Part shown: in pieces, positions 3,451-47,278 of the stretch | Numbering within the stretch: the first letter of the stretch is position 1 | Layout of the letters: each line of letters opens with the position of its first letter | From: Bacteroidia bacterium | GTDB taxonomy: Bacteria; Bacteroidota; Bacteroidia; UKL13-3 | Direction: 5' to 3' | Assembly: GCA_025454875.1 (NCBI GenBank) | Contig: JALONP010000023.1 | Span: 1-47,278, forward strand | DNA: 47,278 nt | Program-made: the position numbers and the translations under genes | Notes under the pieces: model-generated | The model's database searches: none | What the model was told of the DNA's origin: nothing | What the model saw: only the letters and a program-made list of their open reading frames with translations

Positions 3451-6400
3451 TTGAAAACACTTAGGTTAGTCTTAATTTCACAGCGATTGAAAGTTAACTC
3501 ACCCTATATCGTATTTTTAATCCTGTTATTGAGCTTTAAGGCCTTTTCGCAACCGGTGGCAAATTTTACTGCAAACCGTACATCAGGCTGCAGTCCAGTA
3601 ACGGTTCAATTTACCAACACGTCAACAGGTAACCCAACTACCTTTTTATGGGACTTTGGTAACGGCAATACTTCTACTTTACCCAACCCATCTGCAATTT
3701 ATGTAACTCCAGGAACCTATACTGTTACCCTTACCGTTGGCAATGGCTCGGTAACCAATACCAAGGTGGTAAATGCATACATCACTATTTACAACAACCC
3801 TATTGCTGAATTTGCTGCTGCACCAGTTTCAGGTTGTATCCCATTACCCGTTACATTTACCGACAATACAACTGTTGGAGGTGCTCCAATTACCTCTTGG
3901 ATATGGGACTTTGGGAGCGGGGTAACTTCTACCCAACAAAATCCAACAAACGTATACAGTGTTGCTGGAACTTACACAGTTACTTTAATTGTAACTGATG
4001 CAAATGGATGCCAAAGTTCAAGAAGCAAAGCGGGCCTTGTTACAGCAACTGTCCCATTTACTACAAGTTTTAGCGCATCACCTACTTCAGCTTGCGCTCC
4101 ACCTCTCACAACAACCTTTACGCCAACAGTTAGCCCACCTGGAAGCTACACGTACGCTTGGAACTTTGGAAACAGCAATACGTCAACAACGCAAAATCCA
4201 GCGCATACGTATACCAGCAATGGCAACTATACTGTAGAATTAGAAGTAACTTCGGCATCTGGATGTAAGCAAAAAATAACACAAACCGGCCTTGTCCAAA
4301 TTGGCGGAATCACTCCAGATTTTGATATTGTGGCCGCAGGAGTTTGTGCTCCTACAAATGTTACTTGCCAAAACAAAAGTACGCCCGTTGCACCAACCAA
4401 TTCGTTCACATGGACTTCTAGTTTTCCGACACAAACAAGTACCAATGCGTTGTATAACTACACCCAAACGGGTTCGCATTCCATAACCTTAACTGCACAA
4501 TCAGCTGCCGGTTGTATATCCAGCATCACCAAATCCTTTTCTCTTGCGCAAAAACCAACCGCTAGTTTTACTGTTTCCAAATCCAATTTTTGTGAAACCC
4601 CAGCTTCAGTTAGTTTCTCCAACACTTCTGTAGGATCCACCTCTCAAAACTGGAATTTTGGGAATGCCGTTACTTCAACTTTGGTAAATCCCTCTGTTGT
4701 ATATAATGCAGAAGGTACTTTTAGACCCCGTCTTTTTGCTATTGGGCCGCAAGGAAGCAATTGCAGAGACACTGCCATTGCTACAATTACCGTTGCCAAA
4801 CCCAAAGCGGAAATAGTGAGACGGAACCAAAAAAAAGGATGCGCCCCTTTAACGGATACCTTTGAAGTTATTGACCAAAGTTTAATCCCCCTCACATCAT
4901 GGAAATGGGAATTAAATGGCGTAACGATTTCAACAAACCGATTATTTATTAGAACATTTACCGATACAGGTGTATTTGTTTTGAAACTCACCGGAACCAA
5001 TAGCGAAGGTTGCGAGATTGTGTTGTTTGATGAAGTTCAAGTTGGGATAAAGCCGATTGTAAACTTTACAGCTGATAAATTGAATGGTTGCTTCAATCGA
5101 ACAATGATAACCTTCACGCCTACATGGACTGGTGTAAAACCCTTAGAAATGCGTTGGGATTTTGAGGATGGAAGCTCTGATGAATTTATACCTATTAGAT
5201 TATTTACCGACACGGGGCTTTATACCATTGGATTAACCGCTACGTATCGTGGATGCAGTACCGAAGTTATTAAGCGAGATTACATTGAAATTTTCCCTCC
5301 AATAGCCGATTTTTCCTTTAAAATCGACTCTTGCCAAACAGACTCCGTTCAGTTTATTCAACGGAGCATTGGACGCAATGCGTACGTATGGAATTTTGGT
5401 GATGCAACCACTAGCAACTTATCGAATCCGAGAAAAGTATACGTTACTCCTGGAACCTATAAAGTACAAATGATAGCCCGTGATACTGTTCACAATTGTT
5501 ACGATACCCTTAGCCGAAGTATTATCATCATCAATAAACCTCAAGTGAAGTTTTCGCCTCTCGATTCTGCAGGGTGTAGTCCACTAAGACCACAATTGAG
5601 GGACTTATCTATTGTGGATTCGAGTAGAACAATCCGAAGTTGGGCATGGAGGGTAACACCTGGCAATACTATACTTACAGGTCGAAATCCCAATTTAAAC
5701 CTCTCTAGTCCTGGCCTATTTTACGTAAAACTCGAAATTACTGACAACCTTAATTGTCGGTATTTCGGAACCGACTCAAGTAAATTTAAGGTGTATGGAG
5801 GCTCCGCTAATTTCTCATTATCTGCAAACAAGGGATGTGTACCATTTGTGTTGAATGTAAAAGATTCTGCCAAAGCCGAAAATGGTATCCAATCTCGTAA
5901 GTGGTTATGGGGCAATGGAGATAGCACATTAGTATCAGACACATTTGCAACTTATACCTATGCAGACGCCAACAAAACAAACCAGTCACTTGGGTTTTCT
6001 GTTCGGCTTGTTGTAACCGATAGCCAAGGATGTTCATTTACCAGCACTCGTTTGGTTGTACCTACCAAACCAGTTGTTACATTTACCGAAACAAGGTTTA
6101 AAACGTGCGGCAAAGATTCTATACGATTTGGTACTACATTTAGTGCAGGATCAATCCTTTCACCCGCAACAGCTTTATGGAGGTTTCCAAACAATACACA
6201 GGCAACAGGTACTTCTACTTTTTACAATGCCTCAGGCGATACTTTGTTGCCTTTTAAACTCACGCTAACAGATGCCAACGGTTGTATTGATAGTTTAGTT
6301 AAACAATTACGAATTAATACGAAGCCCCCTACCATTCAGTTTGATGCTACTCCACGAAATATTCCTTGCTATAAGAGTAATACCAAAGTCAGGTTTTTTG

Positions 6401-8487
6401 ACCAAACCATTAATGGAGGAAATGGCATTCGATTCAGAAGGTGGTTATTTGGAGATAATACAGGAGCTGACAGTTTGCCTTCGCCTGAGAAAATATATTT
6501 TATACCAGGTAGGTATACCGTATCGTTAATGGTTGAAGACAGCGCAGGATGCAGGGATACGAACACCATACCTGATTTTGTTGTTGTTGGTGGCCCGTTT
6601 GGTTCGTATTCATTTACCCCTAAAAAGGGTTGTACCCCAACTGAAGTATTTTTTGATGTAAACACACCCAATGCCCGGTTAATTATTTGGGACCATGCAG
6701 ATGGTGTTGTCGACACCTTTGCCATAGATACCCATAGGTACGTGTATACGCGACCAGGAGTGTATTATCCACGATTAACCTTAATTGACAGTTCGCTCAC
6801 ATGTGATTTTGGTTATGATGCAATCGACTCGATTGTGGTTACACCACTTCCCAATCCTGACTTTGAAAGTAACAGAACAATTATTTGCAAAGGCACGTCA
6901 GTATTGTTAACCAATACCACAGCTCCACATAGCAGCATTATCAACAAATGGAAATGGAAACTTGGAACAGGCGATAGCATTATGATGCAGGGCCCCCTCA
7001 CCTATACTTATAATACAGAAGGTGTATTTTCCATTTCATTACAAGCAACCGATACCCTTGGATGCACAAATACCATTGTTAAGCCTGATTATATCACAGT
7101 AAATAACGATACCATCCCACCTGCTACACCTTTGGTTAAGAGAGCAACGGTAATGAGCAATGATAGTGTATTGTTTGAGTACAAACCAAATGCTGAGTTT
7201 GATTTTGCCAAGTATGTTATTTACCACAACACAAGTGCCACCCAAAAAGATAACATAAACGATACTGCATTTTTTGAAACGGGTCTTAACACCACTGAAT
7301 TTACTTACCAATACCAAATGGCAGCGGTGGATGTTTGCAACAACCAATCACCCACGAGTGAAATACACCGAACCATTGAGCTAAAAGCAATTCCAGATAC
7401 CAATGCCATTCGATTAGCTTGGACGCATTACTTAGGATTTGATACTTTGTTTCAATATGCAATTTGGCGCAAAGGAGTAAACGATGCTGATTACGTGGTA
7501 TTGGATACTTTGCCAGCACAAATTAACCAATATAAAGACACAAGCGTACTTTGTTACAGTTACTACACGTACCAAATAAAAGCAATTGAAACAAGTGGTT
7601 ATCTTCAGTTTTCGTGGAGTGACACAAGCGGTGCTGCACCTATTTATATCAATACCCTTCCATTTACCCAAAACATAAGAGCTACTGTAATAGGAAATGC
7701 TGTGCGCTTAGAATGGAACTTAAGGACCCACTACCGTTCGTTTGAATACCAAATATACCGTGCTGTTGATGGAAACCCACCAAGCTATTTTAAAACGATG
7801 CCTTCAACAGATACGGTGCTCATCGATACGGACGTTGATGTAAATGCACATACTTATTCGTATACGACATACCTTGTAGATGCTTGTGGTGGAATGAGCC
7901 AACCAAGTAATGTGGCAAGAAGCATCTTGTTAACTGTGTATATGGTAGACAATGATATTTTAAAACATGATCCTAAACTAACTTGGACACCTTACACAAA
8001 ATGGGATAATGGCGTACACCACTACAATGCAACATTTTTAAACGAGGTTGATAGCCGCACCGACTTGGTTACTCGCACCGATTCATTAACCTTAACAGCA
8101 ACACATAAGTATATTAATTTGGTTCAGGATGATTACTGTTATTTGATTACCGCTTACCAACAAGGAGATACATCCATTATTAGCGAGTCGAACCTTGCTT
8201 GTGTATCAACTGAACCTCGGTTGTTTGCTCCAAATGTGTTTACTGTAAATGGAGATAATTTGAATGATGTGTATTATATAAGGGGACTGTTTATTGAAAC
8301 CTTTGAACTCTCTATCTATGATCGATGGGGCAAAATGGTTTTTCAAACCAATAATATCAACCAAGGTTGGGACGGTACCATAAACGGTGAAATTGCAAAA
8401 TCGGATGTGTATGTTTACAAAGCTGAAGCAACCGGAAAGAAAGGCCAACGTATTTCCATTACAGGAAACATCACTTTGATGCGCTAA
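3451..8487 (+). CDS. Giant PKD-repeat protein with T9SS type B sorting domain
   Basis: A 1,678-residue secreted surface protein. A hydrophobic signal segment (about residues 19-34, cleavage after AFSQ) opens it. About fourteen PKD-like units follow to about residue 1215, recognised by repeats of W-x-F-G...P...Y...G-x-Y-x-V-x-L. Next come about three fibronectin-III-like units, and the last 85 or so residues (PNVFTVNGD... to NITLMR) match the gliding-motility-associated/T9SS type B C-terminal domain. Such proteins cross the outer membrane through the type IX system and serve as adhesins or matrix proteins; the ligand cannot be told. The start codon is a TTG: 3451, or the TTG at 3487, which would give a more standard signal peptide. 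No ATG is available. The convergent neighbour is porX, a regulator of the same secretion system. Confidence 0.9.
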   Translation: MKTLRLVLISQRLKVNSPYIVFLILLLSFKAFSQPVANFTANRTSGCSPVTVQFTNTSTGNPTTFLWDFGNGNTSTLPNPSAIYVTPGTYTVTLTVGNGSVTNTKVVNAYITIYNNPIAEFAAAPVSGCIPLPVTFTDNTTVGGAPITSWIWDFGSGVTSTQQNPTNVYSVAGTYTVTLIVTDANGCQSSRSKAGLVTATVPFTTSFSASPTSACAPPLTTTFTPTVSPPGSYTYAWNFGNSNTSTTQNPAHTYTSNGNYTVELEVTSASGCKQKITQTGLVQIGGITPDFDIVAAGVCAPTNVTCQNKSTPVAPTNSFTWTSSFPTQTSTNALYNYTQTGSHSITLTAQSAAGCISSITKSFSLAQKPTASFTVSKSNFCETPASVSFSNTSVGSTSQNWNFGNAVTSTLVNPSVVYNAEGTFRPRLFAIGPQGSNCRDTAIATITVAKPKAEIVRRNQKKGCAPLTDTFEVIDQSLIPLTSWKWELNGVTISTNRLFIRTFTDTGVFVLKLTGTNSEGCEIVLFDEVQVGIKPIVNFTADKLNGCFNRTMITFTPTWTGVKPLEMRWDFEDGSSDEFIPIRLFTDTGLYTIGLTATYRGCSTEVIKRDYIEIFPPIADFSFKIDSCQTDSVQFIQRSIGRNAYVWNFGDATTSNLSNPRKVYVTPGTYKVQMIARDTVHNCYDTLSRSIIIINKPQVKFSPLDSAGCSPLRPQLRDLSIVDSSRTIRSWAWRVTPGNTILTGRNPNLNLSSPGLFYVKLEITDNLNCRYFGTDSSKFKVYGGSANFSLSANKGCVPFVLNVKDSAKAENGIQSRKWLWGNGDSTLVSDTFATYTYADANKTNQSLGFSVRLVVTDSQGCSFTSTRLVVPTKPVVTFTETRFKTCGKDSIRFGTTFSAGSILSPATALWRFPNNTQATGTSTFYNASGDTLLPFKLTLTDANGCIDSLVKQLRINTKPPTIQFDATPRNIPCYKSNTKVRFFDQTINGGNGIRFRRWLFGDNTGADSLPSPEKIYFIPGRYTVSLMVEDSAGCRDTNTIPDFVVVGGPFGSYSFTPKKGCTPTEVFFDVNTPNARLIIWDHADGVVDTFAIDTHRYVYTRPGVYYPRLTLIDSSLTCDFGYDAIDSIVVTPLPNPDFESNRTIICKGTSVLLTNTTAPHSSIINKWKWKLGTGDSIMMQGPLTYTYNTEGVFSISLQATDTLGCTNTIVKPDYITVNNDTIPPATPLVKRATVMSNDSVLFEYKPNAEFDFAKYVIYHNTSATQKDNINDTAFFETGLNTTEFTYQYQMAAVDVCNNQSPTSEIHRTIELKAIPDTNAIRLAWTHYLGFDTLFQYAIWRKGVNDADYVVLDTLPAQINQYKDTSVLCYSYYTYQIKAIETSGYLQFSWSDTSGAAPIYINTLPFTQNIRATVIGNAVRLEWNLRTHYRSFEYQIYRAVDGNPPSYFKTMPSTDTVLIDTDVDVNAHTYSYTTYLVDACGGMSQPSNVARSILLTVYMVDNDILKHDPKLTWTPYTKWDNGVHHYNATFLNEVDSRTDLVTRTDSLTLTATHKYINLVQDDYCYLITAYQQGDTSIISESNLACVSTEPRLFAPNVFTVNGDNLNDVYYIRGLFIETFELSIYDRWGKMVFQTNNINQGWDGTINGEIAKSDVYVYKAEATGKKGQRISITGNITLMR

Positions 8488-39934: not shown

Positions 39935-40120
39935 GGTATTAAAATTATCTACCTGTATTCGCATTCTGTTATTTGTGTTTGCTGCTGGCTTTCTTTTAAC
40001 TTTTACAATCAAGATAACAGCAACACAGTGTACAACTATTTCAAACATCAATGGTTATTTTAACACATCTCAATGTTAATCTAGCTTTTAACGGCCATTG
40101 TAAGTATAAATTACAAAACC

Positions 40121-40276
40121 ATAGTACTCAAGGCAGTCCTAATTACTATCGGGATTGAACCCGCATAATATCAGAATTAACCAAAAGTCTTTAGTACCCG
40201 AGGCGGTCCCGATAACTATCGGGATTGAACCCGCATAATATCAGAATTACCCAAAAGTCTTTAGTACCCGAGGCGG
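40121..40276. repeat. 70-bp tandem repeat at the island edge
   Basis: Units begin at 40121, 40191 and 40261, an exact 70-bp period. The first 62 bp common to the unit at 40145-40206 and the unit at 40215-40276 differ at one base. The leftmost copy is degenerate (about 7 changes in its first 33 bp). Each junction carries a palindrome, best seen at 40207-40224 (TCCCGATA-AC-TATCGGGA). On the minus strand, units contain GCGGGTTCAATCCCG and CCGCCTCGGGTACT, which resemble a tRNA T-arm and acceptor 3' strand. There are no unique spacers, so it is not a CRISPR. Confidence 0.85.
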
Positions 40277-40284
40277 GACTTGAA
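40262..40284 (-). other. tRNA 3'-end fragment, possible attachment site
   Basis: On the minus strand this reads a T-loop TTCAAGT, T-stem CCCGC, acceptor strand CTCGGGT and discriminator A. This would fit a tRNA beginning GCCCGAG, as many tRNA-Leu genes do, but the 5' T-stem strand to its right is wrong (TCGGA in place of GCGGG) and no anticodon or D-arm follows. A truncated tRNA 3' end next to phage-like genes is the usual mark of a tyrosine-recombinase attachment site. Confidence 0.45.
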
Positions 40285-40363
40285 TCCGACTTGGGTTGTT
40301 TTTCATTGGGGCAATAATACTGGTTTTGCTGGGTTTTCTCATACTTTTTATTAATTATTTTTT

Positions 40364-40388
40364 TGACGATAACTGACGATGACTGACG
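40364..40388. repeat. Short direct repeats TGACGATRAC
   Basis: TGACGATAAC (40364-40373) and TGACGATGAC (40374-40383) are tandem and followed by a third partial copy TGACG (40384-40388), just past the stop codon of the repressor. The role is unknown; they could be recombinase arm sites. Confidence 0.4.
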
Positions 40389-40817
40389 TTAGAAAACAAC
40401 CGATTGATTTACAAGCACATTTAACAGGTTATCTTTGTAGATTAATGCCGCTCTTAGCATATTAATCTCTGCAATTGCTAATTGTAACTTTTGTTTATAA
40501 TCATCTTCATTGACTTTTGTGCGAATAGATTCATAATCAAGGAAAAAATTTGAAGTTGGGTCGGTAAGGTTGTATAAACTCCCGACCCCAGTCCGTATCC
40601 ACTCAACATTAATGAACCTGTTTATTTCTGATAATTTTTGATAAAAGCTTTCAGGAACTGGTGTCTCATCAGATTCGTACCTCTGTATGGTTCGCATTTT
40701 CACACCGACTTGATTTGCAAGTTTTTCCTGCGAAACGTGCAATACCCGCTTTCGCACCTCTGCAATTCTCCTTCCCCTACTTGTGAGTAAATTTTGGCTT
40801 TTTTCTGTGTTCTTCAT
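40389..40817 (-). CDS. CI-like XRE-family repressor
   Basis: A 142-residue protein with an N-terminal helix-turn-helix of the XRE type (about residues 13-65), with VSQEKLANQVGVKMRTIQRYE as the helix 2-3 region. A helical C-terminus (about 90-142) may oligomerise it. ATG 40817 is preferred to a TTG seven codons upstream. It is divergent from a small HTH protein across a 317-bp AT-rich gap, as phage and element immunity repressors often are. A TACAATTG box lies five bases before the ATG. No peptidase domain is present, so it is not a LexA/S24 type. Confidence 0.82.
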   Translation of the reverse strand: MKNTEKSQNLLTSRGRRIAEVRKRVLHVSQEKLANQVGVKMRTIQRYESDETPVPESFYQKLSEINRFINVEWIRTGVGSLYNLTDPTSNFFLDYESIRTKVNEDDYKQKLQLAIAEINMLRAALIYKDNLLNVLVNQSVVF

Positions 40818-41134
40818 TTTTTCAATTGTAACAAACAAGATGTCGTATAAATGTCATAACTATTTACAATCATATTTGATTATCATTAATCGAATATAAT
40901 CATCTGCAATTAAAAAATAAGCGAAAGTGTATATAAAATCTATATTCAGTACTTTTTACCTGATAAACAGCTATTTTTGGCCATTTTTTACCGTCCATAA
41001 AATTAAGAAAAATTTCCGAATTGAATCTGAGAGTTTTATAAATATTAGGTTTAGATAAACGTACTCAAAGTCATATTTATAAGACACAATTGCCATATCC
41101 TTGCCAATCATAATGTAATTGAAACAACGGTTCT
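40818..41134. promoter_or_regulatory. AT-rich divergent control region
   Basis: This 317-bp stretch lies between the divergent repressor and HTH genes and holds no credible ORF. It contains GATTAT (40878-40883) facing ATAATC (40896-40901), an operator-like inverted repeat, and several A/T runs. It is a plausible switch region; I cannot assign individual promoters with confidence. Confidence 0.4.
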
Positions 41135-41410
41135 ATGTACCATTCCAAAACCAAAACGACCCGGTTACATGATTTACTTATCCGGGTTCCATTAGACACA
41201 AGAGAAGCTATTATTAAACTTTCAGAAGCTACTCAGATACCTGCTCAAAAAATCAGACGTATTAAGCGTGGTGATACAAAAACATTATCACTAACTGATG
41301 CGACATTAATCGCACGTTGGTTTAACCAATATTTCCCTTGCAATGCGGAAGATTTAATCACCAAAAATCTTTTAATAGCCAAGGCTCATAAGTTAAAATT
41401 TGTCCGATAG
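41135..41410 (+). CDS. Small HTH protein (Cro-like position)
   Basis: A 91-residue, basic protein. The middle (about 24-70: LSEATQIPAQKIRRIKRGDTKTLSLTDATLIARWF) fits a compact XRE-like helix-turn-helix in which the second helix is IPAQKIRRI. It is divergent from the repressor and 11 bp upstream of the next gene, the position of a Cro or activator in a phage switch. Specific family uncertain. Confidence 0.55.
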   Translation: MYHSKTKTTRLHDLLIRVPLDTREAIIKLSEATQIPAQKIRRIKRGDTKTLSLTDATLIARWFNQYFPCNAEDLITKNLLIAKAHKLKFVR

Positions 41411-41421
41411 GCTTATTGGGT

Positions 41422-42249
41422 ATGATAATTAGGCTTAAAATACCTCAGGGCTTATCACGTAGCATTGTGGCCGATAGGCAGCTAAGAAACACTTATCAAA
41501 CGAATAGGTCAATAAAATACTATGGATTTTACTGTGCTTTAAAGAGCTTGACTTCTTCAGGTTTGATAAAGGATTATGCTGAACAAATCGAGCTATTGTG
41601 CGAAGTTGCAAAGAAAAGCCGAAGTTCATTTTATACTTATTTGAATGAGTGTATAAAGCTGAATCTCATTCAGAAAAATAACGACCATTTAAGACTAACC
41701 TGCTGGGATAATCTGATTGAACGGTTCAATCTAAAAGACAAAGTTTTTACCGAATACACGTATGATACAGAACAGAAAGGGCAAACACCGGAATACTACT
41801 TAGCAAGTGCAGAAATTCAGGAAAATCAGCAATACCAAGCAAGTAATGTTCTAAAACAAATACGTCAAAATCCACATATAAAAAGCATTCTGAACGAAAA
41901 GGAAACAAACGTAAACACGGTAGAAAAACTACAATGGCTACAAATGAAAACCTTTGTAAACGGGTGTGGTGGGTCTGAGGCTATTTACAGCGTATTACAC
42001 AGCCTGAATGCTGATATACACAGGTCAGTACCAAAGCTAAGAAAAGCATTTAACCTGAAAAGCAATAGAAGCGTGGGTTACCTCAAAGGCCAGTTAGAGG
42101 AAAGAGGATTTGCCGTTATCAAAGGAAGGCTTTTAAAAAGCCCGGAAAGAATGCGTAAAAGCAGGGTGTTCTATCATACTGGTTGGGATAAAACCACCTT
42201 GGAAAGTACGTGGCAACTGCCCGATTCAATCACGATAATTATTTCATAA
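41422..42249 (+). CDS. HTH/replication-type protein of the element
   Basis: A 275-residue protein with a winged-helix-like N-terminal half (about 20-105: KYYGFYCALKSLTSSGLIKDY... to LRLTCWDNLIERF) and a second HTH-like part near 190-215 (IHRSVPKLRKAFNLKSNRSVGYLKGQLEERGF). No catalytic motif is visible. Proteins of this build are common next to repressors in Bacteroidota prophages and plasmids, where some start replication; that role is only possible here. ATG 41422 is used rather than a TTG two codons earlier. The tandem ATTCNGAAT array downstream could be its binding site. Confidence 0.5.
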   Translation: MIIRLKIPQGLSRSIVADRQLRNTYQTNRSIKYYGFYCALKSLTSSGLIKDYAEQIELLCEVAKKSRSSFYTYLNECIKLNLIQKNNDHLRLTCWDNLIERFNLKDKVFTEYTYDTEQKGQTPEYYLASAEIQENQQYQASNVLKQIRQNPHIKSILNEKETNVNTVEKLQWLQMKTFVNGCGGSEAIYSVLHSLNADIHRSVPKLRKAFNLKSNRSVGYLKGQLEERGFAVIKGRLLKSPERMRKSRVFYHTGWDKTTLESTWQLPDSITIIIS

Positions 42250-42325
42250 AAATGGATAAAAACTGGTTCAGTCCAAAAAATGGTTAACACTTTAGTGGAA
42301 TAGCATTTCATGCTGTATTCAGGTA

Positions 42326-42346
42326 TTAAGTCCTTAAGAACTTAAG
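42326..42346. repeat. Paired CTTAAG palindromes
   Basis: TTAAG-TC-CTTAAG-AA-CTTAAG covers 42326-42346, giving two full CTTAAG hexamers and a facing half. It lies directly before the ATTCNGAAT array and may be part of the same control site. Confidence 0.4.
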
Positions 42347-42348
42347 AT

Positions 42349-42383
42349 ATTCAGAATATTCGGAATATTCAGAATTTCAGAAT
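42349..42383. repeat. Four-unit ATTCNGAAT array
   Basis: Four head-to-tail copies: ATTCAGAAT, ATTCGGAAT, ATTCAGAAT and TTCAGAAT. Units are 9 bp (the last lacks its first A), and each full unit is itself palindromic around its centre. The array ends 25 bp before the next gene. This build is typical of a protein-binding array, either an operator or a small replication iteron set. Confidence 0.65.
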
Positions 42384-42408
42384 AAGGCGCAAAAATGAAT
42401 TTTAAAAA

Positions 42409-42756
42409 ATGACTGAGAAAACATTTAAAAATCTGACCCATGAGGTTATGGGCGAAATCAAGCAGGAAGCCGCAAAGTCAACTGGTAAGAACAACCCCAC
42501 TTTCCGCTTAGTAGCCTATTTTAAACCGGGTTCAAAACATCCCAAATGGATGTGGAATAGCGAATGGCTATTGACTTACTATCGCACCTATTTCGGTTTT
42601 ACTCAGGGAACAGAGTTTGGAGCGGTCAAAATGAAAATTCAGGAGATAATTAATGCCACGACCAGGATAGTTGTTTACGATAACCGAGCCGGGAAAATTC
42701 CCGTGTTACTGGAATATGTGAACGGTAAACTCAGAGTTGATAATACTCAACGATAA
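42409..42756 (+). CDS. Hypothetical small element protein
   Basis: A 115-residue protein without a recognised family. It begins with a helical, charged stretch (KNLTHEVMGEIKQEAAK), then an aromatic-rich part (KHPKWMWNSEWLLTYYRTYFGF), and ends beta-like (TRIVVYDNRAGKIPVLLEYVNG). The array of ATTCNGAAT units lies just upstream. A five-codon ORF (42395-42412) ends on its start codon (ATGA), which could couple translation. The next gene starts 4 bp after its stop. Confidence 0.55.
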   Translation: MTEKTFKNLTHEVMGEIKQEAAKSTGKNNPTFRLVAYFKPGSKHPKWMWNSEWLLTYYRTYFGFTQGTEFGAVKMKIQEIINATTRIVVYDNRAGKIPVLLEYVNGKLRVDNTQR

Positions 42757-42760
42757 GGAT

Positions 42761-42976
42761 ATGGCAAGCAAAAAACACCGCATTATTTTGGAGGTTTCCG
42801 ACCTGTGTGTATTAACAAACCGTTCTATGTCGCAATGTTACCGAACTTATCAGTTATACAGGGATATGTTAGGAAAGCAAAAGGAACAGAGCATTACCAT
42901 TCGTGAGTATTGCAAACTGGAAGGTATAGAGGATGTAAATGAGGTTTATGAGGCATTAGGAATAAAGATAGAATGA
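42761..42976 (+). CDS. Small helical, possibly DNA-binding protein
   Basis: A 71-residue basic protein (from ATG 42761; an upstream reading overlaps the previous gene). It reads as three to four short helices: LEVSDLCVLTNRSMSQCYRTYQLY looks like a helix-turn-helix with the recognition helix near SMSQCYRTYQ, and ITIREYCKLEGIEDVNEVYEALG resembles the C-terminus of small element regulators in Bacteroidota. It is 4 bp downstream of the preceding gene, so the two form one unit. Confidence 0.5.
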   Translation: MASKKHRIILEVSDLCVLTNRSMSQCYRTYQLYRDMLGKQKEQSITIREYCKLEGIEDVNEVYEALGIKIE

Positions 42977-43023
42977 AATCATCATCTAAAATCATATCTT
43001 TGAACAAGAAAATATTATATTTA

Positions 43024-43190
43024 TTTAGCGTTTGCTAAAGCTCCTTGACCTCGAAATCTGGTAAATTTCAATCACACAAGGGCAGCTTATGCGAGCGCTC
43101 ACGGTATGCGTGGGCGGTTGCTATGCTTTGTGTGTGGGCTTACCAGAGCCTCGAGGCAAGCTGGCAATTTAGCCCGCGCTGTTTTTAGGC
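43024..43190. other. GC-rich foldable element, candidate ncRNA or mobile repeat
   Basis: A 167-bp GC-rich stretch in AT-rich DNA, with no convincing ORF. TTTAGC (43024-43029) and GCTAAA (43034-43039) make a small hairpin. A larger nested structure follows: CCTCGA (43049-43054) with TCGAGG (43151-43156), CTGGTAA (43058-43064) with TTACCAG (43140-43146), and CACACAA (43073-43079) with TTGTGTG (43128-43134). The loop holds the palindrome GAGCGCTC (43093-43100) and TATGCG twice. It could be a structured RNA, a MITE-like repeat or an origin/transfer site. The 42977-43193 gap is otherwise AT-rich. Confidence 0.5.
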
Positions 43191-43193
43191 ACT

Positions 43194-43748
43194 ATGAACA
43201 CCATTTTATACTCCTTACTTGTGGGGATTGACATTGCTGCAATCACTCTCTTAATTATCGTTATTAAACCTTATCTGAAAAGGTCCATTTTTAACCGTCC
43301 AAAACTGGAAATAGAGCTTCGTCCAGCAGAGGGGTTTTACTTACTCAAAAAATGGCAGGTAAATGAGAAAAAAAACACAGAAGAACCTATTTATGTTTAT
43401 GAAGCCTGCTGGTGCTATGATATTGTGATAAAGAATGTTTCAGCCCACGATGCATTTTCACCTGTTATTAAGTCCAATTTAGCATTACCATACAGCACCC
43501 AAATGAGTTCTCTAAATCCATTTATCCCTATTCGTTCCGCTTCTCAAGCAACAATTAATGTTACCTACAAAGTACTTCACCAGTCAACTGAAAGTAAACG
43601 TTTGATACCTGAAGGGATTCCAGCAGAAATTAGAAAGGTTAAATTCCTGCTGGAATACGCAAATGAACACGGAAAGAAATTTTATACGGTTTTTGAATGT
43701 AAAACTGATTCAAACACTAAGCACTTTACAAGGCCATCCGGCTTTTAA
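43194..43748 (+). CDS. Membrane-anchored hypothetical protein
   Basis: A 184-residue protein with one N-terminal membrane helix (about 5-27) followed by a basic segment (KRSIFNRPK) and a soluble domain of beta character that includes an aromatic/Trp region (EACWCYDIVIKNVSAHDAF). The basic segment after the helix suggests the soluble part is cytoplasmic. No family is recognised. It is preceded by the GC-rich element and followed after 63 bp by the HEPN-like gene on the same strand, so the pair may work together. Confidence 0.5.
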   Translation: MNTILYSLLVGIDIAAITLLIIVIKPYLKRSIFNRPKLEIELRPAEGFYLLKKWQVNEKKNTEEPIYVYEACWCYDIVIKNVSAHDAFSPVIKSNLALPYSTQMSSLNPFIPIRSASQATINVTYKVLHQSTESKRLIPEGIPAEIRKVKFLLEYANEHGKKFYTVFECKTDSNTKHFTRPSGF

Positions 43749-43811
43749 TCTGAAATAAGAAACCGGAAATCCAATCTTTTTAATAAATTGCTTTTACAAA
43801 GCAATCCTCTT

Positions 43812-44603
43812 ATGAAAACAAAACATCTAATTAAGTTTTTGGGCACGGCTGCGCACTTAGATGCTGACTTGGAATTTGTAGATGTTATTCAAATTGCTGT
43901 TGATCGGGGAAACCTTAAAACAGACCAGTCAAAATTCATATTTGATTATGTGAAGGAAACGCACTCAAAGTTATCAATTAGAGCAAATTCCCATCACAGT
44001 CGTAATACGGCAGCGAGTCATTTAAAAAATTCCATAAGAGCGGCTTTTATAAAAAGCATTTATGAAGCTGCTTCAACTTATTTTCAAGACATTCTAAAAG
44101 CTGCAATGCGAAAAGGGATAAATACAGAAAGGCTTTTAGGAAAACATTCAAGGAATTTCTCATGCAAAGAACTTATTGAAATTGGAAGCTATCCGAAATT
44201 ATTAGAAACAATCGCAGCTTCGATTTTTCGTCAGCTTGAAAATGAGAAATCCACCAAAACACTTATCGAGGAAATGAAAAACAAGCTAGACTTAAATATT
44301 CCAGATGAGTTAATATCTAAAGCATTACCTTATTTCGAGATTAGACACAGAATAGTTCATGCAGAAGGCATTGCTGACAAGGAATTTTGTTCTCGATTCC
44401 CTAATATTATTGCTAAACCAAACAAAACTATTCGTTTAAGCTATGAAATAGTTAGTGAAGCAAAGCATAGTATAAGCAATCTAATCTTGGAATTTGATAA
44501 ACAAATTACAAGTAATGGTATAGTAGCTTCCTCAGAATATAATCCCAATAGTATTAAAAGAAAAACTTCACCAGCTTCAAAGCGTACATCAATTCAGGGT
44601 TAG
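43812..44603 (+). CDS. HEPN-like protein, candidate RNase
   Basis: A 263-residue, mainly helical protein. The C-terminal third carries R178-H179-x3-H183 (FEIRHRIVHAEG), which fits the R-[NDH]-x3-H catalytic motif of HEPN RNases such as the RiboL-PSP-HEPN branch. A helix before it (EELISKAL-type) and the helix after it are in the expected places. Residues 1-60 and the basic tail (last 20) are not assigned. HEPN proteins are often toxins or effectors of anti-phage systems. I start at ATG 43812; an upstream TTG would add eight residues. No adjacent nucleotidyltransferase (MNT) antitoxin is visible. Confidence 0.5.
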   Translation: MKTKHLIKFLGTAAHLDADLEFVDVIQIAVDRGNLKTDQSKFIFDYVKETHSKLSIRANSHHSRNTAASHLKNSIRAAFIKSIYEAASTYFQDILKAAMRKGINTERLLGKHSRNFSCKELIEIGSYPKLLETIAASIFRQLENEKSTKTLIEEMKNKLDLNIPDELISKALPYFEIRHRIVHAEGIADKEFCSRFPNIIAKPNKTIRLSYEIVSEAKHSISNLILEFDKQITSNGIVASSEYNPNSIKRKTSPASKRTSIQG

Positions 44604-44650
44604 GTTTTCAGAGTATATAAATCTCAAAAGGAATATATAGAAATATATGC

Positions 44651-45187
44651 TCACTGAAACAGCCCTATTGTTCTAACATAATGCAACGCACTGTAAAGCT
44701 CATTATGCGAAATTTGCCAGTCTTGCTTTTTTAGCATTAACTCATTGTACAACTCTGCATCAACATCTCCTGATTTAAGTTTTGAGGTGTATGTATTCTC
44801 TGCTTCCAAAAAAAGATTCTGTTTTTCTGCATTGTCATCAATTAGCTGTTGTAGCCATTTAATGTAATCTTCTTTACTTTCAAACGTAGGATAAGGCTCA
44901 GGCTCTTCCAGAGATAGTATTGATTTACCGGGTTCAGAAAATGAGGTATTCTCAACAAATCTCACACCTTCATCAGTTATTTGTCCGCGGTAATCCTTTC
45001 CTCTTTCAGGTTGAAAAACAGCTAATCTTCCTTCTGTTAAAATTTGTTGGATTTGCTCAAGTTCAGCATACTGGAGATATTCTCCCTGAGATTGAAAAGC
45101 CTCAATAATTGATACCATTCCTCGCTCCTTTGTTTCTTTGTACAAAATGAGTAGCGTGAAGTCCTTTTTTTCTTCAAAATTCATCAT
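44651..45187 (-). CDS. Winged-helix-like protein, third gene of the HNH operon
   Basis: A 178-residue acidic protein. The N-terminal part (about 8-78) has the pattern of a winged helix, ending in a basic beta turn (GKDYRGQITDEGVRFVE). The C-terminal part (about 100-178) is helical and probably mediates dimerisation or partner binding. The family is not recognised. It lies 18 bp after the HNH gene on the same strand, so it is likely the last gene of a three-gene operon, perhaps as a partner or regulator. It is convergent with the HEPN-like gene. Confidence 0.55.
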   Translation of the reverse strand: MMNFEEKKDFTLLILYKETKERGMVSIIEAFQSQGEYLQYAELEQIQQILTEGRLAVFQPERGKDYRGQITDEGVRFVENTSFSEPGKSILSLEEPEPYPTFESKEDYIKWLQQLIDDNAEKQNLFLEAENTYTSKLKSGDVDAELYNELMLKKQDWQISHNELYSALHYVRTIGLFQ

Positions 45188-45205
45188 ATCACTTTTGTTT
45201 TATTG

Positions 45206-46333
45206 TTATTTGTTCGACCTATTTATAAACTCAACGTATTTTTCAGCAAGTTCTATACATAACCGCTGAACCATATCCTCTGTAATTATTGTACCTTCAG
45301 GTACTGTTGAAAATACTTTATCCCACACATTTTTAGTAATCCGTTCTAACTCTAAGTCCCATGCTATTTTATTTCCTATCTGTATAACACGACCACCCTT
45401 TTCTGAAACCGAGCCTCTGTAATCGGTTTTATTATCAAAGATTTCTTTTAACTGTGCTTTGTTCAAATCTAACTGTACGGTTTTATCAACTTTTTCACCT
45501 TTGATAACGTCATAACTATATGTTTCTGTAAAACTATCACCTGAGTAGTTTTCTGAAAGGAGTACAATGAATGAATACGAACTAAAAAACTCAACAAAAC
45601 AGTACAAGATTTTATCTTCGGCATTACCAACTAAATGCAAAAGGTGTAGTACTTCATTTTCGTCCATTTCGTAAGCACCTGAAACGTGATAATGCTGAAC
45701 TACGTCAAGTGTTTCTTTTCCTTTAAGATAAGGAATCAAATGTTTGATTTGTTCCCTTTCCCCATTGTTTAACATATAGAAGTTAACCGCTGATTTGGCT
45801 ATTGATTGAAACGCTGGTTCACCACCGATTGTTATGGGGATAGAAACTTGTTCGTTCAGGTATTTTTCAGTCCATTTAAAATGTTTTTTAGCCTCATCAA
45901 CGCTGAATCCCGGATACTTTTTCTCAAGGCCTTTCAAGTTCTTGGTCAATTCTTCCTCACTACGGGCAGTAAAATGTAGGTCTGTCCCCTTGTCGCCCGG
46001 GGTTACTTTATGAGTCGGTTTTGCTGGTATGGGTTTACCTCGCAAACCGATATTGTATTCTTCACCGTTTGCTGTCTTTGCTCCCTTAATTATTTTGTTC
46101 GGCTCTTTATCATCACGTTCAACTGCAAGGAAAGTTGCAAGAAAAGCAAGTTGATGAGCAAGTTCTTGGTCAGCACCATGACCCATTTCTGAATTACATT
46201 TTTTACAAATCAATTCGCGGGATTTGAGTTTTCCTCCAATTGAATTGAGCAAAATATGTTCAATACTTTTATTGCCTTCATGAGTTGGGCTTTTCTCAAG
46301 CAGTTCAGTTTCGCATATGTAACACCTACCCAT
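45206..46333 (-). CDS. HNH endonuclease (HNH_5-like)
   Basis: A 375-residue protein whose N-terminus is a zinc-braced HNH fold: C4-x2-C7, the E25-H26 pair (SIEHILLNSIGG), C43-x2-C46-N47 (CKKCNS) and D55. It matches the layout of HNH_5-type nucleases, which have the EHI...GG and C-x2-C-N segments. The remaining about 310 residues, with an unidentified mixed fold, may sense a ligand or bind a partner. It is 2 bp downstream of a membrane protein gene and 18 bp upstream of the winged-helix gene, so it is the middle gene of an operon. Several anti-phage systems use such nucleases; the role here is inferred. Confidence 0.72.
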   Translation of the reverse strand: MGRCYICETELLEKSPTHEGNKSIEHILLNSIGGKLKSRELICKKCNSEMGHGADQELAHQLAFLATFLAVERDDKEPNKIIKGAKTANGEEYNIGLRGKPIPAKPTHKVTPGDKGTDLHFTARSEEELTKNLKGLEKKYPGFSVDEAKKHFKWTEKYLNEQVSIPITIGGEPAFQSIAKSAVNFYMLNNGEREQIKHLIPYLKGKETLDVVQHYHVSGAYEMDENEVLHLLHLVGNAEDKILYCFVEFFSSYSFIVLLSENYSGDSFTETYSYDVIKGEKVDKTVQLDLNKAQLKEIFDNKTDYRGSVSEKGGRVIQIGNKIAWDLELERITKNVWDKVFSTVPEGTIITEDMVQRLCIELAEKYVEFINRSNK

Positions 46334-46335
46334 TT

Positions 46336-47100
46336 TTATACTGTTTGATGTTTAGAAATATATTCTGTGACCTCCTTGTAAAATCTTCTTACAAGTGCAG
46401 GCAGAATTCCAAGAAAACAATGAGCAATAACAGTTAAGAACATTGCAATTACTGCCAAGATTAAAGTGAGGGAGTACAGAATCCAGCCAAAATCAGGTAA
46501 CGATATAAAATAGATTGTTATGGCTATTATTCCTTTAAAAGCAAAATGAAAACTCGCCTCAAGGTCACGTTTAGGCTTAGATAAGTCTTTTTCTATTTTA
46601 TCATAGGTTTCATTAGTGATTTTTTCCTTTAATTCCTTTCCTACTTCAATCAACATTTGTTCATTAAGCTGCATTGGTGTCACTATGCCGGAAACTTCTA
46701 TTACTCTGTTTACGCCATCATCAATACTTTCTTTCTGCAATTCATAATTGACTATTGTTCTCGTCCATTTCACCGTAACAAAATGGCTAATCGGAATAAA
46801 CACCAAGTTAGAAATACCCTGAATTAATAAGTTAACAACTATAAAGATGCTAAAGGGTATGAAGAACTTACCTTTTATAATAAAATCCAGTAAAGATTTA
46901 TAATCATTATAGTCTAACCATGCATAATTTCCGTAAGCACTTTCGTAAAAGAAAGAAGAAATACTAACCGCAAATAACAGGTTTAACATCCTCCTGACAG
47001 GTGGATAAATAGACTTCCCTTTTAGGTAATCTGAAAGGATTAATAATGCATCTTGAATAGCAGACATAGGCACTACAATATTACCAAAATTCATTTGCAT
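46336..47100 (-). CDS. Four-helix membrane protein, first gene of the HNH operon
   Basis: A 254-residue integral membrane protein. Helices lie at about 37-54, 79-108, 186-202 and 204-234. A charged, largely helical loop (110-185) contains VNRVIEVSGIVTPMQLNEQMLIEVGKELKEKI and is probably cytoplasmic. The C-terminus is basic (RRFYKEVTEYISKH). No transporter or channel motif is recognised. Its stop lies 2 bp before the HNH gene, and the upstream divergent promoter region (47101-47196) is shared with a gene running off the window. Confidence 0.65.
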   Translation of the reverse strand: MQMNFGNIVVPMSAIQDALLILSDYLKGKSIYPPVRRMLNLLFAVSISSFFYESAYGNYAWLDYNDYKSLLDFIIKGKFFIPFSIFIVVNLLIQGISNLVFIPISHFVTVKWTRTIVNYELQKESIDDGVNRVIEVSGIVTPMQLNEQMLIEVGKELKEKITNETYDKIEKDLSKPKRDLEASFHFAFKGIIAITIYFISLPDFGWILYSLTLILAVIAMFLTVIAHCFLGILPALVRRFYKEVTEYISKHQTV

Positions 47101-47161
47101 TTTTCACTGTTTTTTACCATTCCTACGCATCCTTAACTATCCTTTTCAGACCCCACTTTCT

Positions 47162-47197
47162 TGTTCCGCAGTTTTGTTTTCGCAAACCAGCGGAACA
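47162..47197. promoter_or_regulatory. Inverted repeat in the divergent control region
   Basis: TGTTCCGC (47162-47169) and GCGGAACA (47190-47197) are exact 8-bp inverted arms over a 20-nt loop, with a weaker inner pairing of GTTTTG and CGCAAAC. It touches the start of the next ORF and lies in the gap between the divergent genes, so an operator or attenuator is plausible. Confidence 0.45.
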
Positions 47198-47278
47198 TGC
47201 ATCAAAAATTCATTTCAGGCATTTATGACACACTCAGTTTTGCGGGCGGAGCAATAGCTGGAGTAGTATCATTTGAAC
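47197..47278 (+). CDS. Partial ORF cut by the window edge
   Basis: From ATG 47197 the reading frame stays open to the end of the window (27 codons). The residues after MHQKFISGIYDTLS are rich in Gly and Ala (FAGGAIAGVVS), as in a membrane or signal segment. The start lies directly at the inverted repeat and diverges from the membrane protein gene. Too short to name. Confidence 0.35.
   Translation, partial: MHQKFISGIYDTLSFAGGAIAGVVSFE

Follow-up and report, generated by a model that had tools for sequence, protein, structure and literature searches.

An HNH nuclease gene and a four-TM membrane protein gene in a putative tRNA-Leu island of a Bacteroidota-type genome: a candidate modular conflict cassette

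Results

Three minus-strand genes near a contig end

The stretch of DNA analyzed here (the window; 47,278 nucleotides) comes from a Bacteroidota-type genome of 2.98 Mb, in which it forms contig C35. Close to its end, genes for a membrane protein, an HNH nuclease and a 178-aa protein follow each other on the minus strand (Table 1), with 2 bp between the first and the second and 18 bp between the second and the third. The original prediction had listed these three open reading frames with the same coordinates, strand and gaps, all of which proved correct. When the region was shuffled (n = 300), the longest open frame comprised 169 codons (mean 90), compared with 254, 375 and 178 aa for the three genes. 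Because homologs exist for the membrane and HNH proteins, and because both exceed the frames in the shuffles in length, these two reading frames are genes beyond doubt. The membrane protein probably starts at Met12 (ATG at 47067; 243 aa) rather than at 47100 (254 aa), since its relatives begin at or near this position. The contig stops 178 bp upstream of the membrane gene and, thus, a further member of the operon may precede it. Judged from the sequence, the genes are predicted to be cotranscribed; a scan with sigma-70-type models, which do not cover Bacteroidota promoters, found neither a clear promoter nor a terminator, and promoter-like sites were rarer than in the shuffles. For the 178-aa protein, no homolog was found by tblastn, phmmer or genome searches; it had been described as winged-helix-like, for which Pfam, NCBIfam, PADLOC and PDB sequences gave no support.

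Table 1. Features in the right part of the window
Feature	Coordinates	Strand	Remarks
Four-TM membrane protein gene, first visible gene of the unit	46336..47100	-	254 aa; homologs in six other Bacteroidota genomes
HNH_5 nuclease gene	45206..46333	-	375 aa; zinc-binding HNH residues 1-62, conserved C-terminal region ~80-300; PF14279, 1.5e-12
178-aa orphan protein gene, third of the three	44651..45187	-	no family or homolog found
271-aa protein with HEPN-type RHRIVH (Rx4H) motif, convergent neighbor of the three genes	43788..44603	+	sequence inspection
att-like 25-nt copy of the tRNA-Leu(taa) 3′ end, right end of the island	40260..40284	-	96% identity

The genes occupy the presumed right end of an island

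In a genome of the same genus (G001), the core genes matching those beside the region adjoin tRNA-Leu(taa), tRNA-Gly and mutS. In the genome of the window, mutS, tRNA-Gly and tRNA-Leu are found on another contig (C7), directly followed by a tyrosine-integrase-like gene (PF02899, 2.4e-5) and by other genes up to the end of that contig. The att-like sequence in the window has its counterpart in the tRNA-Leu 3′ end on C7 (L036 4645-4669), beside the integrase. Owing to the tRNA-Leu and the integrase on C7 and the att copy in the window, we interpret positions 40285-47278 as the right-hand end of an island that inserted at tRNA-Leu(taa) and whose left end is on C7; the middle part is either not in the assembly or on other contigs. 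The G+C content of 40285-47278 is 0.357, versus 0.395 in bases 1-40000. The earlier proposal that the genes reside inside an element was, thus, upheld and could be narrowed down to this island end. A search of the genome for Terminase_6N gave no hit; although this test is weak, it makes a complete prophage of the usual kind less likely.

Positions 40103-40284 of the window consist of about two 70-nt units that repeat the tRNA-Leu 3′ end in tandem, and G001 has a longer tandem array, with 63-nt units (L032 14085-15001); perhaps such copies were left by repeated integration at this site. The left part of the island on C7 (L036:7179-12568, minus strand) encodes a transglutaminase-like protein together with a collagen-repeat protein in which 'AYVYIAYADDxxGxGF' units recur. 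The 271-aa protein carrying the RHRIVH motif, for which no convincing Pfam or PDB match was found, is preceded by the gene for a 184-aa protein with one TM segment (43194-43748), likewise lacking a convincing family match; together they possibly constitute a second conflict gene pair of the island, outside the HNH unit.

The HNH protein carries a long conserved C-terminal region

The HNH motif originally reported (C4, C7, H26, C43, C46) was borne out by its match to PF14279 (HNH_5), which is above the cutoff, and by conservation. In an alignment of 12 sequences, all of which match PF14279, no variation is seen at C4, C7, E25, H26 and C46, and almost none at C43 and N47. The protein therefore has the zinc-binding CxxC pairs, the catalytic EH and the CxxCN that define HNH_5, described as an abundant, integron-associated endonuclease family (PMC7370490), and is predicted from these residues to cleave DNA. 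While the zinc-binding core (CxxC...EH...CxxCN) is shared with HNH_5, the protein differs from it by a conserved C-terminal part of ~300 residues, which lies outside any model, PF14279 spanning only ~56 residues. Within this part, K180 is invariant and H230, E248 and Y263 are nearly invariant in the 12 sequences. The protein was modeled well (pLDDT 82.5, pTM 0.77). No clear match for the C-terminal fold was obtained with Foldseek in the PDB or BFVD, nor with VIA-align: the best Foldseek hit had an E-value of 6e-3 with a TM of 0.12, and VIA Z-scores stayed below 6, nearly all on helices 322-375. The C-terminal part, thus, has no recognized fold.

The HNH family is sparse, mobile and variable in its partners

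Counting the genome of the window itself, relatives of the HNH protein were present in 4 of the 196 genomes searched and in 7 of 395 genomes of the phylum. They also occur on 18 plasmids (<60% identity) and at five loci in the GTDB collection, and distant relatives lie within an integrase-adjoining gene block of three viral or prophage contigs. The family is sparse and mobile, being found on plasmids, in prophages beside integrases and in genomic islands. In 50,697 phage genomes, neither the HNH protein nor the membrane protein found a match, and a phage gene proper was dismissed despite the distant HNH relatives in the three viral contigs.

The relatives mostly stand alone, so the nuclease may need no partner; some have tight partners, which vary by locus. 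A gene for a DpnII/MboI-type nuclease is 45 bp away from the relative at one locus (L018), a DUF2971 gene 47 bp away at another (L025), and a DUF6119 protein is encoded some 300 bp upstream of a third (L019). At L021 (7147-8972, plus strand), a trypsin-like gene overlaps the HNH relative by 4 bp, possibly a protease-nuclease pair. In a Clostridiaceae bin (L022:4740-9248, plus strand), genes for a protein with two HATPase domains, a receiver-like protein and the HNH relative follow each other with gaps of 3 and 27 bp, and this row may be a sensor-regulator-nuclease cassette. Among 97 proteins encoded near HNH relatives, matches to 63 PADLOC families were recorded, compared with 15 families among 88 control proteins. 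Overlapping models inflate these counts, and the test set includes plasmids and prophages, while the controls come from the chromosomes of some of the same genomes; the enrichment is, thus, only suggestive of a conflict context.

An unnamed four-TM family recurs close to effector-like genes

The membrane protein has four hydrophobic segments, as the description of a four-helix membrane protein had implied, and these are conserved in seven family members. A first search of 395 genomes of the phylum yielded one weak match; a search at the class level then returned members with 47, 29, 25, 23 and 20% identity. A profile built from three members, leaving out the loci L055, L057, L056 and L059, recovered all four of these (4.5e-40, 3.4e-30, 6.6e-24 and, for L059 in genome G559, 1e-7, respectively), and the frame in L057 (genome G091) is intact, with 240 aa. 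The family is sporadic, with seven intact members in Bacteroidota including that of the window. All share one layout (TM1, TM2, a hydrophilic helical stretch of 80-90 aa, TM3, TM4); the family as defined here combines a significant profile match and this layout with a close effector-like neighbor in most members. Modeled alone, the window protein gave a poor structure (pLDDT 48). No name for the family was found in Pfam, PADLOC, NCBIfam or PHROGs, scans of viral contigs gave no match, and the queries tried did not retrieve it from plasmid and phage collections.

The closest relative of the window protein (47% identity) is encoded at L053. Its gene lies 12 bp behind a DUF4917/SIR2_2 gene; the cluster further encodes an 8xMP membrane protein (PF24838) and two more proteins in which inspection revealed SIR2-like motifs. 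At L054, the member follows a DUF4411 PIN gene and an XRE/IrrE gene at 14 bp. It lies 21 bp after a gene with an RHGIMH HEPN-type motif at L057, which itself comes after PIN-like and IrrE-like genes (by inspection), and 27 bp after a DnaJ gene at L056, near XRE/IrrE and PIN-like genes (by inspection). The member at L059 has the gene for a 1243-aa protein 22 bp upstream and a SIR2-like gene 26 bp downstream, an arrangement that looks like a three-gene conflict operon; this member carries an extra C-terminal domain of ~110 aa (L059:6779-7804, minus strand). At L055, the neighbors are not effector-like: the member lies 39 bp after a dnaE2-like gene and is convergent with a different HNH_5 gene. 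This region (L055:7929-12953, minus strand) contains dnaE2-like and dinB-like genes, with an SRAP-like gene nearby and the other HNH_5 protein (6342-7466) facing them, and a link of this member to SOS mutagenesis is possible.

Pairing of the four-TM family with the HNH family of the window was seen once. The one further genome found to contain both families (G139) has them ~100 kb apart. The original prediction had treated the three genes as one system and named scattered homologs as the finding that would speak against it. For the set of three this is what emerged, as relatives of the HNH and membrane proteins occur apart and the third protein is without a detected homolog, and a conserved trio was rejected. 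The scatter is not random, however: both families recur in settings that are mobile or conflict-related, and their partners there are exchangeable.

Discussion

Comparison with known systems

Units that combine a nuclease and a membrane protein are already known. No PADLOC family matched any of the three proteins at E ≤ 1, so a named defense system was rejected, in line with what had been proposed initially. In Zorya type II, an HNH nuclease is paired with membrane proteins. That system consists of the MotAB-like ZorA and ZorB and the HNH protein ZorE, whereas none of the three proteins matches PADLOC, and relatives of the membrane protein of the window are found in unrelated cassettes; Zorya type II was therefore discarded. 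Septu, composed of the ATPase PtuA and the HNH protein PtuB, was likewise discarded, there being no PADLOC match and no match of the other two genes to an ATPase family. Colicins and polymorphic toxins carry the HNH toxin domain at the C-terminus, along with export or receptor domains, and are accompanied by an immunity gene, whereas the HNH domain of the window protein is N-terminal (residues 4-62) and no export domain was found with Pfam. As for type II restriction-modification, no methyltransferase family was detected among the ten island proteins between 40389 and 47100, although this is not absolute because only 178 bp of contig remain upstream of the unit. Membership of the HNH protein in a restriction-modification or colicin-type set, which had been named as the other finding against a new system, was thus not observed, with this limit on the former. 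SIR2-like and membrane protein cassettes (L053 with 8xMP, PF24838) are also units of an enzyme and a membrane protein, but with a SIR2-like instead of an HNH effector.

A modular cassette and its alternatives

The island location, the sparse and mobile HNH family, its varied tight partners and the closeness of the membrane family to effector-like genes together suggest that the HNH and membrane genes are an acquired, modular conflict cassette of two functional genes, probably directed against phages, a reading to which we give a probability of about 45%. The anti-phage role initially ascribed to the three genes is, thus, retained for the tightly spaced, mobile HNH and four-TM pair and abandoned for the trio; owing to the non-random recurrence of both families, the idea of defense, which we infer for the pair, survives in a modular form. 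Against this reading stand the single observation of the HNH pairing, the many HNH relatives found alone, and the member beside dnaE2-like and dinB-like genes at L055.

The last but one of these objections leads to the possibility, tentative but to be taken seriously, that the HNH protein is a stand-alone defense nuclease (type IV-like or a self-contained restriction factor) and the other two genes are incidental passengers of the island. Most HNH relatives, in plasmids and genomes, indeed lack a tight partner. A single-gene precedent exists in E. coli NILS69, where an HNH endonuclease that resembles EcoKMcrA restricts phage and plasmid transfer and sits by two methyltransferases, which limit it (PMC12409345); the likeness to the window protein is one of description, and the latter has no adjacent methyltransferase. 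McrA-like type IV enzymes combine HNH with a modified-base recognition domain; for the C-terminal region of the window protein, no clear fold match was obtained. The 2-bp spacing to the membrane gene, the 4-bp overlap with the trypsin-like gene at L021 and the repeated closeness of the membrane family to effector-like genes do not fit mere passengers. HNH genes are commonly homing endonucleases, and the sparse, horizontally scattered distribution would suit a selfish element of this kind devoid of a defense role; however, the gene is not in an intron or intein and has no constant insertion target, and the long conserved C-terminal region and co-directional tight partners at several loci render this reading very improbable.

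The roles within the pair could also be reversed, the membrane protein being the killing effector (a pore or depolarizer) and the HNH protein a DNA-sensing trigger or a second effector. Known anti-phage systems include small membrane proteins believed to act as effectors of cell suicide (PMC9122126), and the four conserved TM segments would be compatible with this, but at other loci the family is found next to enzymes that are of the effector type themselves (SIR2-like, PIN, HEPN-motif, HNH), which makes a regulator or anchor more likely and a reversal of roles unlikely. We consider similarly unlikely that the genes form a toxin-antitoxin or addiction module, in which the HNH toxin would be held inactive by the membrane protein or the 178-aa protein encoded downstream. 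Some membrane relatives do adjoin pairs of XRE/IrrE and DUF4411 PIN genes resembling such modules; the HNH relatives, in contrast, occur alone or without a constant partner, so a mandatory antitoxin is improbable for this family.

Under the preferred reading, that of a modular conflict cassette, the simplest division of labor is a soluble enzyme as the effector and a membrane protein that senses, anchors or restrains it. The HNH protein would cut DNA, and its conserved C-terminal region may recognize a target or trigger, or restrain the nuclease. The membrane protein, as sensor and anchor, would bind the effector via its cytoplasmic stretch and couple it to an event at the inner membrane, such as entry of phage DNA or membrane damage. 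In other genomes, a SIR2-like, PIN or HEPN-type enzyme would take the place of HNH beside the same module. As the four-TM protein is the part common to the HNH, SIR2-like, PIN and HEPN-motif gene contexts, it is conceivable, if still doubtful, that different conflict systems have recruited it as an exchangeable control subunit in the membrane, which would link soluble toxic enzymes to events at the inner membrane and so act as one "membrane trigger" for unrelated effectors.

To our knowledge, little is settled about how anti-phage systems detect infection through their membrane components. An unnamed membrane family found beside HNH, SIR2-like, PIN and HEPN-motif genes offers a way into this question, as partner swaps could test for a shared trigger. 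The present analysis also contributes an HNH family that is sparse and mobile and has a conserved domain still to be explained. If the cassette reading is true, the membrane family would be a handle on new cassettes that nuclease-based searches miss.
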